Origin: Gammaproteobacteria bacterium
GTDB taxonomy: Bacteria; Pseudomonadota; Gammaproteobacteria; Steroidobacterales; Steroidobacteraceae
Direction: 5' to 3'
DNA length: 43,053 nucleotides
Assembly (NCBI GenBank): GCA_003164785.1
Contig: PLUE01000020.1
Coordinates: 1-43,053 of the forward strand
The translations under genes were made by a program, and so were the position numbers. Under the pieces are notes generated by a model. That model saw only the letters and a list, made by a program, of their open reading frames with translations, searched no databases and was not told where the DNA came from. Positions 32,691 through 42,370 of the stretch are shown in pieces (position 1 is the first letter of the stretch; every line of letters starts with the position of its first letter).

Positions 32691-33221
32691 TTAGGAGTGG
32701 CAGGAAGTGGGCAGATATTGCACGGGAATGGTCGTGGCCACAGCAGTAACGCCCGTTCCGATCACTGCTCCGCCGCCCGTCGGGGCAAGAGCCGTACCGC
32801 ATTTCCATACGATATCGTTGTTCGCGGTGACGTAGGGTACAAATGTAAGAGTGTTGGCGCCAGCGACACCGAGTTTAGCATTGGCAGCATACGGCGCCGC
32901 GCTCGAAAAGGTAACGACAACAGTTCCGGTGGTAATCGTAACGCTATTGACGTACTTGCCCGTGCCTGTTGCGGTCGTGTTAACGCAACCAGCCACGGGG
33001 GCCGCTATCGTGCTAACACAAAGCGGGAAGGTACCATTCTCTGCAAAGAATTCGCCTATTCCCGTCTGGAGAGTACCGGCAAGGCTCATGCCTTCTGTTA
33101 CCTGCGCTCGAATCGTGTAGTTCTGATAGGCCGGGATGGCGATCGCGGCCAAGATGCCGATGATCGCAACGACGATCATCAACTCGATGAGGGTGAAACC
33201 CTTTTGCACTTGCTTAAGCAT
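32691..33221 (-). CDS. pilA: Type IV major pilin PilA
   Basis: Structural subunit of the type IV pilus. The 176-aa prepilin has an 8-residue leader (MLKQVQKG) cleaved before Phe9, a mature N-terminus [20 protein letters not shown] with Glu5, and a globular domain of about 130 residues rich in Thr, Ala and Gly. Four cysteines: one pair around the middle (LCVST...AGC) and a C-terminal pair (WKC...TSC) bounding a D-loop of about 35 residues. The last residue is Ser. A strong AGGAGG precedes the ATG at 33221. Regulated by the sigma54 promoter at 33289-33304; an intrinsic terminator follows. Confidence 0.96.
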
Positions 33222-38875: not shown

Positions 38876-40225
38876 CTATTCAATCCCGAGCTTCTTGATT
38901 CGATAGCGCAGGGCTCGGAACGACATGCCGAGGGTCTTGGCCGCGGCCGTCTTGTTATAGCGGCTCTGCTCGAGCGCCTTGACGATGGCCTCGCGTTCGA
39001 TGTCCTCGAGGTGGTCTTCCAAGGCGGAAGATGTCGTCGCGGGCGCACTGTGGGGGGAATCGGCGGCCGAATGCATCGGAGTGGCCCGCAACTGGATGTC
39101 GCTTGCATTGATTTGGCGATCGGTGCACAGAGTGACGGCGCGTTCCAGGATGTTCTCGAGTTCACGAACATTGCCCGGAAATGAATACGCGTCGAGAGCC
39201 TTCAAGGCATCCTTGCCGAGCGCCGGCGGCGTGATCTTCATGCGCCGCCCCAGCCGTCGCAATATCGCATCCGCGAGTTCCGGTATATCTTCCCTGCGCT
39301 CGCGCAATGAGGGCACTCTCAGCTCAATGACATTCACGCGATAAAACAGGTCCTCCCTAAATGCGCCTTTTGCGACCAGTTCCGAGAGATTCTGGTGGGT
39401 TGCCGACAAGATGCGCACATCGACACCAATCTCGTGCTGCTCACCGATGGGGCGCACCGATCTTTCCTGAATGACGCGCAGCAGCTTCACCTGCATGTGA
39501 AGGGGTAGATCGGCAATCTCGTCGAGCAGCAGTGTGCCGCCCTCGGCGGATTGGATCAGGCCCTTTTTGTCGCCAACGGCACCGGTAAAGCTCCCCCGCT
39601 TGTGCCCGAACAGTTCGCTTTCCATCAGCTCATTGGGAATGGCGCCGCAATTGACCGGTACGAACGGGCCGTCTCTGCGGGGTCCCGACTCATGAATCAG
39701 CCTTGCCACCAACTCCTTGCCGGTCCCGGATTCGCCATAAATATGCACAGGCGCCTGGCTTCGGGCCATCCGAGCAATCATTTCGCGCATATGCTGCATC
39801 GCGCCGGAAGTTCCCAGGAGACGCGGCCCAAAAAGCTCCGTATCTCCATTCGGATCCTCGGACATCTTGATGGCGGTGGCAACCAGCTTTCTGAGTTCGG
39901 CCAGATCCAGCGGTTTGGACACGAAGTCGAACGCGCCGAGCTTCAGGGCTCGGACGGCGGTTTCCATATTGCCATGCGCCGTGATGACGGCCACCGGCAC
40001 ACCAGGCGCATATTTTTGGATCCAGCCGATCAGTTCCAGTCCGTCGCCGTCCGGTAGTTGCATATCGGTGAGGCACAATTCGTATCTATCGGCCCGGAGC
40101 ATGCGTTGTGCGGCGGCGACGGTCGACGCAGTATGAGGATCGAGATCCATGCGACGCAATGTGATGGACAGCAATTCACAGAGGTCCGGTTCATCGTCGA
40201 CAACAAGAACTGCGGGCTTGGGCAT
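38876..40225 (-). CDS. pilR: Sigma54-dependent response regulator PilR
   Basis: Response regulator that activates pilA transcription with sigma54 polymerase. The 449-aa protein has a receiver domain with acidic pocket DDE and phosphoacceptor D54 (LTDMQLPDGDG), an AAA+ domain with Walker A GESGTGKE, the sigma54-contact loop GSFTGA (Ser in the second position, as I recall for other PilR proteins), Walker B GTLLLDEIADLP, SATHQNL and FREDLFYRVNV, and a Fis-type helix-turn-helix at the C-terminus (YNKTAAAKTLGMSFRALRYRI). The kinase gene pilS is directly upstream and its likely target pilA is 5 kb downstream on the same strand. Confidence 0.95.
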   Translation of the reverse strand: MPKPAVLVVDDEPDLCELLSITLRRMDLDPHTASTVAAAQRMLRADRYELCLTDMQLPDGDGLELIGWIQKYAPGVPVAVITAHGNMETAVRALKLGAFDFVSKPLDLAELRKLVATAIKMSEDPNGDTELFGPRLLGTSGAMQHMREMIARMARSQAPVHIYGESGTGKELVARLIHESGPRRDGPFVPVNCGAIPNELMESELFGHKRGSFTGAVGDKKGLIQSAEGGTLLLDEIADLPLHMQVKLLRVIQERSVRPIGEQHEIGVDVRILSATHQNLSELVAKGAFREDLFYRVNVIELRVPSLRERREDIPELADAILRRLGRRMKITPPALGKDALKALDAYSFPGNVRELENILERAVTLCTDRQINASDIQLRATPMHSAADSPHSAPATTSSALEDHLEDIEREAIVKALEQSRYNKTAAAKTLGMSFRALRYRIKKLGIE

Positions 40226-40400: not shown

Positions 40401-42017
40401 TTATTCCTCCCACCGTTGGGGATCGCTGAACACCACCCGGAAAACGGTCCCGTCCCGGCCACGCGGTTCATAGAGCAACACCGCGCGATTGAGTTGACAC
40501 AGTTCGCGGGCGATGAACAAGCCCAGCCCCGTTCCCCCCTTATGCCCGGTGTAGAACGGCTCGAAGATGCGATCGACGGCCGCGGTCTCGATTCCGGGAC
40601 CGCCATTGATCACCTCGAGATAAGGCCGGCCGCTGGGGCTGAGCCGGCCCATCCTGATCTCGACGTTGATGCCGTCTTGGGCCTCGCCGTATTTCAGGGC
40701 ATTGTCGCAAAGGTTCCACACCGCCTGGCGCAAGTGACTTGGGTCTATGAGGACCTCCAGATTGACCGCTTCCTCCACCACGGCGATCTGGGTCATCGAG
40801 ACCTGCATGGTTTCGCAGAACTCATCCACGAAGTCCTCCAACCAGTCTCCCAGCGTCAGCCGCGTCGGCCTCGTGGCTTCACGACGCGAGAGCTGCAAGA
40901 CATTGTTGATGATGGTACTCACGCGTTCCGAATTGCTGCGGATGATGTCCGTGAGATGACGTTCATCGGCACCCATGACCGGGCTCTCCGCAAGCAATTG
41001 GCCGGCATGGCTCATGGCGCCCACCGGATTGCGGATCTCATGGGCGATGCTGGCAGAGAGTCGGCCGAGCGCCGCCAATTTGCTTTGCTGCACACGCTCG
41101 GCCATCAGGCTCGTGTCTTCGAGGAAAATCAAGGTTGGGCCCGGATCGAGTCCCCCCAGCGGCGCAAAATGAGGTTGGATCAGTCGAGCACCGTCCGCCG
41201 CGACGAAGCTCGATGGATCTTCGTCGCCCCGATTGCTCTGCCGCCAGGTGGCGAGCGAATACAGCAAGCGGGGTGAGACTTCGCCGACCAGCGCGCCCGG
41301 CACCGCTTGTTGATCCCCGAGGATTTGCGCCGCCGATTCGTTGATCAAGCGGATGCGATCGGCGGCATCCACGACCAGAAGACTCTCGCGCAGATGCTGC
41401 ACGATGTATTGGGATAGTTCCGCCATGTTCGCGAGGTCCACATCCCGTTGCCGAACCAGGTCTTCGCTCTGTCGTATGCGGGTTGCGACGATGCTCGCCG
41501 CAGCGGCGATCGAGAACAGAACGACGCCGAGCAGGCCGGCGGCCGCATAGACATTGATATCCACACGGCCGGTGAGCTGTTGCCAGATCGTGTCCGCCAG
41601 CAACGCGATGATGGTGATGGCCGCGAGGAATAGCGCGCTGCGTGGCGGCAGCAGGAAGGCGAGGCTGCCCACGGGAACGAGAAGCAGCAAGCCGAGTCCG
41701 CTGGCCACCCCACCGCAGGCCTGCAAGAGCACCATGAGCACGATCAAATCGAGGGTGGCTTGGAGAATCGTCTGGCCGTACGCGCTGCCCAAGCGTCTGC
41801 GCACCAACATGACACTGAACAGCCCAAATCCCAGATAGAACGCCGTCGCCGCGAAGAACAAGCGCGGCGAGTCGACGGCAATTCCGCGCCCACCTCCGAC
41901 TGAGTAGAGGCTGACCAGCACCAGCGGCACTAAAATCCGATACAGGTTCAGCAGGCCGAGGATGCGCCAGTTCATGGCGAGCTTTTCGCCGTTAATGCGC
42001 CCTGATTGACGGTTCAA
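40401..42017 (-). CDS. pilS: Sensor histidine kinase PilS
   Basis: Membrane sensor kinase of the PilSR system; in Pseudomonas PilS senses PilA levels through its membrane domain. From TTG 42017 the product has 538 aa: about six transmembrane helices (residues about 18-190), a PAS-like linker (about 200-310), a HisKA domain with the phosphoacceptor H326 in SASIAHEIRNPVG, and an ATPase domain (N box DNALKYGE, G boxes NGGPGI and GGTGLGL). The start is unusual. An upstream ATGGATGTA, homologous to the start of the duplicate ORF, is put out of frame by a 1-nt deletion and stops after five codons. Translation must use TTG 42017 or ATG 41973 (MNWRILG). Confidence 0.92.
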   Translation of the reverse strand: MNRQSGRINGEKLAMNWRILGLLNLYRILVPLVLVSLYSVGGGRGIAVDSPRLFFAATAFYLGFGLFSVMLVRRRLGSAYGQTILQATLDLIVLMVLLQACGGVASGLGLLLLVPVGSLAFLLPPRSALFLAAITIIALLADTIWQQLTGRVDINVYAAAGLLGVVLFSIAAAASIVATRIRQSEDLVRQRDVDLANMAELSQYIVQHLRESLLVVDAADRIRLINESAAQILGDQQAVPGALVGEVSPRLLYSLATWRQSNRGDEDPSSFVAADGARLIQPHFAPLGGLDPGPTLIFLEDTSLMAERVQQSKLAALGRLSASIAHEIRNPVGAMSHAGQLLAESPVMGADERHLTDIIRSNSERVSTIINNVLQLSRREATRPTRLTLGDWLEDFVDEFCETMQVSMTQIAVVEEAVNLEVLIDPSHLRQAVWNLCDNALKYGEAQDGINVEIRMGRLSPSGRPYLEVINGGPGIETAAVDRIFEPFYTGHKGGTGLGLFIARELCQLNRAVLLYEPRGRDGTVFRVVFSDPQRWEE

Positions 42018-42308
42018 CGGGTTACATCCATGGGCGCTTGGCGCTGCCCAGGCGCTTGCGCACCAAAAGGACGCTGAACAGTGCGAAACCCAGATAGAAG
42101 CCGCCCGCTGCGAAGAACAGGCCGGGCGACTCGGCGAGGCCGCGGCGGCCGCCGCCCAGGGAGTACAGGCTGACCAGGACCAGCGGTACCAGGACGCGGT
42201 ATAGGTTCAAAAGGCCGAGAACGCGCCAATTCAGGGCGAGTTTCGATCCGGGATTGCGTTCTGACTGTCGATTCAACCGTTTTACATCCATGGCGGCTTT
42301 GCGCTGCC
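41782..42308 (-). repeat. 260-bp partial tandem duplication of the pilS 5' region
   Basis: The octamer GCGCTGCC (plus strand) occurs at 41782, 42041 and 42301, bounding two direct repeats of 259 and 260 bp. The proximal unit is the 5' end of pilS; the distal unit holds the truncated duplicate ORF. Over about 199 aligned bases I counted about 50 differences and no gaps; one 1-bp indel lies near the start codons. On the coding strand the octamer (GGCAGCGC) lies both in the leader of the distal copy and in the LGSA codons of pilS, so recombination at that short homology can explain the duplication. Confidence 0.9.
42022..42291 (-). CDS. Truncated PilS duplicate: two N-terminal membrane helices only
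   Basis: 89-aa ORF starting MDVKRLNRQSERN. From LALNWRVLGLLNLYRVL to the end of the repeat it matches PilS at about 53 of 67 residues by eye. It contains two transmembrane helices (about residues 28-45 and 58-76), and then the duplication junction replaces the PilS sequence after LGSA with KRPWM and TAA. There is no kinase, PAS or DNA-binding part. The stop is 4 nt before the pilS TTG start, so its translation could feed ribosomes into pilS. It may be a decaying fragment, a leader ORF needed for pilS translation, or a small membrane protein acting on PilS or PilA. Divergent from sucC. Confidence 0.65.
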   Translation of the reverse strand: MDVKRLNRQSERNPGSKLALNWRVLGLLNLYRVLVPLVLVSLYSLGGGRRGLAESPGLFFAAGGFYLGFALFSVLLVRKRLGSAKRPWM

Positions 42309-42370
42309 TGCAAGCTTAATTCAGAATACCCGGCCTCAATGCGATCCAAATCAGCCTTCAAGGACAATTC

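Follow-up and report, generated by a model that had tools for sequence, protein, structure and literature searches.

The sensor kinase PilS carries a membrane domain of six helices (6TM_PilS, PF25323), and in Pseudomonas it is stated to contact PilA (excerpt of PMC6058289). Short membrane peptides are known beside or within two-component circuits; MgrB, which acts on PhoQ, is described as an inhibitor of that protein in the excerpt of PMC8404706 drawn on here. In homology-facilitated illegitimate recombination a diverged copy is joined at a short shared stretch, which measures 3-10 bp at illegitimate joints according to an excerpt of PMC6382021. Translationally coupled gene pairs have their stop and start codons close together, and the commonest of them overlap by 4 or 1 nt; in the pairs tested reinitiation drops steeply with distance, but of three E. 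coli pairs two retained much of it across a 2-nt gap (all from an excerpt of PMC10666635).

The locus described here, in a window of 43,053 nt (the whole stretch of DNA that was analysed), resembles each of these systems in part. A short reading frame in front of pilS shares homology with PilS membrane helices one and two out of six, scoring barely above the Pfam cut-off, and has no counterpart of HisKA, HATPase_c, the PAS-like part or the remaining four helices. Like MgrB, it would place a short membrane peptide next to, or inside, a two-component circuit; unlike with that inhibitor, any contact with the kinase would be hypothetical, and its versions show no sign of constraint when compared with one another. 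As in illegitimate recombination, a diverged copy is joined at a short shared stretch, here of 8 bp, whereas no donor was found (among the best 120 of 385 matches) and no imported tract could be delimited. As in coupled pairs, stop and start are close on one strand, here at 4 nt; the pair has a small gap instead of an overlap, and its first cistron is probably a relic. The features are as follows.

38876..40225, minus strand: pilR response regulator, with receiver, sigma-54 activator and Fis-type HTH
40401..42017, minus strand: resident full-length pilS, with 6TM_PilS, HisKA and HATPase_c; TTG start at 42017
41782..41789, minus strand: 8-mer GGCAGCGC within pilS, where the fragment's match to pilS stops
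42018..42021, minus strand: 4-nt spacer from the fragment's stop codon to the TTG of pilS
42022..42276, minus strand: pilS fragment ORF, read from the TTG that probably starts it: 79 codons alignable with the pilS start, followed by KRPWM and TAA
42025..42029, minus strand: GGATG, a possible ribosome-binding motif of pilS, within the fragment's last codons
42041..42048, minus strand: 8-mer GGCAGCGC at the junction of the fragment and the second leader
42301..42308, minus strand: 8-mer GGCAGCGC, leader copy
42314..42328, minus strand: conserved leader box TATTCTGAATTAAGC, a putative promoter element, single copy in the window

The resident pilS is followed by pilR. Read from an upstream in-frame ATG at 42291, the fragment ORF spans 42022-42291 on the minus strand and has 89 codons; read from the in-frame TTG at 42276 it has 84. 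The TTG is the likelier start, because pilS and several relatives begin with a TTG at the aligned position. The initial annotation had taken this ORF for a copy of the N-terminal part of PilS, and we recovered the ORF, its match to the 5′ end of pilS (E 1.5e-33 in a search of the same genome, pilS copy) and its match to 6TM_PilS (27.9 bits, where the cut-off is 27, over profile positions 6-63 of 189). The reported differences (50 of 199 bases and 14 of 67 residues) were essentially right, as our gap-adjusted recount gave 59 of 234 bases and 16 of 78 residues; without gaps, 19 of 79 residues differ. The copy was also said to be limited to the first two transmembrane helices. Indeed, two 19-residue windows have mean Kyte-Doolittle hydrophobicities of 2.07 and 2.09, and an AlphaFold model of low confidence (mean pLDDT 63.5) has two helices, so that both agree on two membrane helices. 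The fragment has neither the full PilS membrane domain nor the kinase domain, and does not qualify as a PilS; it is a partial copy of the resident gene minus the catalytic part, as a truncated relic would be.

The two copies are far apart at silent sites. Third-position differences are 0.47 between the fragment and the resident pilS, 0.54 between the resident pilS and that of the relative G011, and 0.44 between the fragment and G011. Branch codon models, fitted to 10 of the 15 aligned sequences, gave the fragment branch an omega of 0.121 (ungapped) or 0.065 (gapped), with 0.095 or 0.094 for the rest. When both copies were given equal ages omega was 0.072, in line with the earlier remark that most changes are silent, and fixing it at 1 cost 24.7 lnL; if the ages are equal, neutrality of the fragment lineage over most of the time since the split is thus strongly rejected. 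Without a clock, an omega of 1 cost 2.1 to 2.9 lnL, or 1.5 to 2.5 lnL when omega of the resident pilS branch was also left free; these clock-free estimates are weak because silent sites are near saturation. The argument that a dead fragment would not look like this therefore holds strongly under equal ages and weakly otherwise. Counting amino-acid changes expected under neutrality was tried and carries less weight: with all changes on the fragment 32.8 are expected and 16 seen, but with half of them there 19.1 are expected and the chance of 16 or fewer is 0.16, so that this crude count alone fails to reject neutrality.

The excess of silent change between the copies is genuine, yet it is no proof of selection on the fragment, since a tandem copy can inherit its constraint from a past as a full gene. 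Changes between versions of a fragment, set against the conserved columns of the parent family, can separate the two readings, even when protein sequences alone are available from other strains. A protein collection yielded 18 short proteins among 22 candidates. One, P0001 (84 aa, 93% identity, from a cluster of 3 members, on a contig of 47,587 bases), ends in SAKRPWM; P0002 (87 aa, 76% identity) ends in the same way, as does the fragment. As both proteins have this tail, the junction is older than the fragment versions and is no accident of a single assembly. Three versions are known in all, one of them as DNA.

We compared these versions over a 63-column core of PilS; conservation reaches at least 0.9 in 42 of its columns, here called conserved. 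Between P0001 and the nearest PilS there are changes at 8 of the 63 sites, with one of these in a conserved column; for PilS pairs at a similar distance the share in conserved columns is 0.13 on average. Between the window and P0001, in contrast, both substitutions fall in conserved columns (0.93 and 0.99), alongside one insertion and one deletion, the latter in a 0.93 column. Among PilS pairs that differ at 2-3 sites (n=125), the conserved-column share averages 0.06, with a maximum of 0.67. P0002, which lies on a 714-base contig, was aligned by hand and may contain sequencing errors, differs from P0001 by 17 substitutions, 11 of them in conserved columns, and by indels; in PilS pairs with 16-20 differences (n=1529) the share averages 0.25 and reaches 0.62, with the proviso that PilS pairs are not independent and that the fragment versions number three. 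An internal gap in the core was found in none of 137 PilS; the sole gapped core among the 138 backbone sequences is that of P0075, whose first residues are missing. In addition, the first helix of P0002 contains an arginine and a proline.

Constraint at the protein level thus appears to have been lost between the three versions (one known as DNA), as expected of a relic, and the changed conserved columns and the indels do not fit a sequence selected as a short protein. Because the versions differ mostly at positions that PilS rarely changes, the fragment is probably no longer maintained as a separate protein, and the step from silent excess to a selected free fragment finds no support: the differences strike columns conserved in PilS and include indels, which are unseen in this region of PilS. 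Reading frames of relics are often, though not always, broken. Here the frame is open in the window, P0001 and P0002, all indels are in frame and no stop was seen, which, in a protein search that finds open versions only, speaks weakly for retention of the frame as such.

Our preferred interpretation, to which we give a probability of about 0.58, is that the ORF duplicates the leader of pilS together with its first 79 codons, joined through the 8-bp repeat to the resident leader, and that it is what remains of a second full-length pilS that had diverged, not a microprotein under selection. Because constraint acted early and is absent among the versions that have the join, the second gene would have diverged at full length under constraint and then lost its remainder when the join formed. 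The initial annotation had offered as its alternative a copy that spent most of its history at full length before being truncated, and this fits best with divergence under constraint followed by a lack of constraint between versions. The second copy could have come from a relative, through homology-facilitated illegitimate recombination, or could go back to an older pair of pilS genes in tandem; among the 217 family genomes searched, we found none with two full-length tandem pilS genes.

The junction itself suits more than one history. The short sequence shared at the joint is the 8-bp GGCAGCGC, as in a scar of illegitimate recombination, and slippage or deletion would leave the same 8-bp trace. 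The 8-mer occurs seven times in the window, both strands together, and the three copies listed above lie 260 and 259 bp apart. Both the tail of the fragment and its stop come from an in-frame reading of the second leader copy, so that the ORF would have had its stop, and been complete, from the moment the join formed. A simple partial tandem duplication, long constrained and now decaying, with a second full-length pilS never having existed, is a less probable history. Three copies of the 8-mer bound its two units, as slippage would leave them, and a one-step slippage of 260 bp requires no second pilS gene, which counts against the history we prefer. The fragment would, however, have to hold an omega of about 0.07 for most of its life and then lose constraint. 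Of the partial tandem duplication first proposed, the partial copy in tandem therefore stands, and a one-step origin is possible provided that constraint was first held and later lost.

Phylogenetic placement divides between these two histories. On codons, the fragment is sister to the resident PilS, 10 lnL above the two alternatives tested (positions next to G011 or basal), which favours the simple duplication and counts against a second pilS. On proteins, with P0001 standing for the fragment on 273 branches of a 138-sequence PilS backbone, the best placements are near P0127 and P0104, and the stem of the resident clade (P0019-P0021, in which P0020 and P0021 have PilS at 87% and 85%) is 0.24 lnL lower; a position as sister to the resident PilS alone is disfavoured (5.7 lnL worse, AU p 0.08), which counts against the simple duplication. 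A first protein tree had grouped the fragments with P0087, P0104 and P0127 (support 95), a grouping we dropped when the all-branch placement made the stem of the resident clade equally good. Import from the G011 lineage was likewise rejected (28.7 lnL worse on proteins, AU p 0.0003; 10 lnL worse on codons). No full-length PilS among the best 120 of 385 matches is nearer to the N terminus of P0001 than 84%, the resident PilS being at 80%. Fourfold-site differences from G011 are 0.48 in pilR and 0.53 in pilS, and from the fragment to 51.7 kb they are 0.28-0.39 in six of seven matched frames and 0.50 in the seventh; over this region (38876-51731 of the contig) the drop beyond the fragment is also seen with other relatives, where it is smaller. 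Third-base G+C gave no compositional sign of foreign origin, with 0.78 for the fragment against 0.77 for the corresponding part of pilS.

The fragment also lies where it could affect expression of pilS. The box TATTCTGAATTAAGC was present upstream of pilS in all 14 loci examined (L059, L061-L067, L069, L070 and L072-L075; 13 from the genus and one from another genus of the family), exactly in 12 and with one mismatch in two, at 51 to 212 nt before the reference position. The leader element, approximately GGCGCGCTATTCTGAATTAAGCT followed by CAGCGCAAAGC, is kept before pilS even where the adjoining upstream DNA differs. In 12 loci outside the genus we found no such box, and since their best matches have 3 to 5 mismatches it is a feature of the group. 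A scan of the window allowing up to 3 mismatches found the box once, before the fragment. With the only box so placed, transcription of pilS probably begins ahead of the fragment and is predicted to run through the fragment into pilS; the box is a putative promoter or regulator site. A sigma-70-type scan found one promoter-like site on the fragment strand, at 42411-42384, where 0.2 are expected; within the fragment there is one terminator-like site, where 0.8 are expected. Neither site enters the interpretation.

The gap between the fragment's stop and the start of pilS is very short, at 4 nt, as expected of a translationally coupled pair. From this gap and the possible ribosome-binding motif in the last codons, we propose that the fragment is a leader cistron: its translation is plausible from the layout, and it is probably still transcribed and translated in coupling to pilS, which it would feed by reinitiation. 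Coupling would help to keep the frame open even as the amino-acid sequence drifts, and no function of the peptide would be needed. If so, a gene relic is being held open by translation of the next gene through it.

A role for the peptide itself appears doubtful. On this view the fragment would have arisen in a simple partial tandem duplication, by slippage between the 8-bp repeats, and would then have been selected because its free hairpin in the membrane binds PilS or PilA and so adjusts the autoregulation of pilin. Contact of PilS with PilA via its membrane segments is reported in an excerpt of PMC6058289, the genome has pilin-like genes (10 N_methyl matches), the fragment-branch omega of 0.065-0.121 is like that of PilS, the open frame and hydrophobic helices are retained in the window and P0001, and codons place the fragment as sister to the resident PilS. 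Against this, the differences between versions disregard PilS conservation and include indels, P0002 has the arginine and proline noted above in its first helix, and tandem copies occur in one of the 217 family genomes searched. One pilin-like N_methyl match (E 3.5e-10) lies at 33135-33209 on the minus strand, in a 217-codon open frame about 6 kb from pilR.

The distribution of the tandem arrangement is narrow. In the genus, 18 of 23 genomes matched the search: the genome of origin with two copies, 17 others with one; 5 had none. In one of the single-copy genomes (G004) the locus is cut off by a contig end, so that 16 of the 22 other genus genomes could be judged, and the tandem copy was absent from all 16. 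In the family, 134 of 217 genomes matched, with tandem copies in the genome of origin only; G086 had two matches, on different contigs. Absence of the ORF from close relatives had been named beforehand as an observation that would speak against a translated fragment; it is what these genus genomes display, but versions do exist in the metagenomic proteins P0001 and P0002.

It is rather improbable, though conceivable, that PilS has given off a copy of its first membrane hairpin as a free leader cistron in its operon, each round of pilS translation also making a decoy for PilA or PilS that would damp the pilin sensor in proportion to the amount of sensor made; the idea comes from the PilS-PilA contact in Pseudomonas and the presence of pilin-like genes. 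A false join made in assembly, between two related strains that share a metagenomic bin, is very unlikely, for although the genome is listed with 6.45% contamination, two more short proteins, each listed on another contig, have the same junction tail, the word shared at the junction is just 8 bp, and the gene order on the sucC side is as in relatives.

A literature search on truncated, N-terminal or duplicated PilS in type IV pili gave no title on a PilS fragment, and one on truncated or partially duplicated histidine kinases as small membrane proteins found nothing. Other short forms occur among the proteins. P0003, P0004 and P0006 (the last on a 63.6-kb contig) look like pilS starts that enter another frame at or just past the second helix, close to the fragment's end point. 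Eight PilS relatives among the best 120 of 385 matches (P0141, P0146, P0147, P0148, P0149, P0152, P0157 and P0161) have no HATPase_c in precomputed domains; these may be truncated PilS recurring in the group, or assembly errors. Among them, P0148 (331 aa) lies on a contig of 552 kb and P0152 (329 aa) on one of 70 kb.
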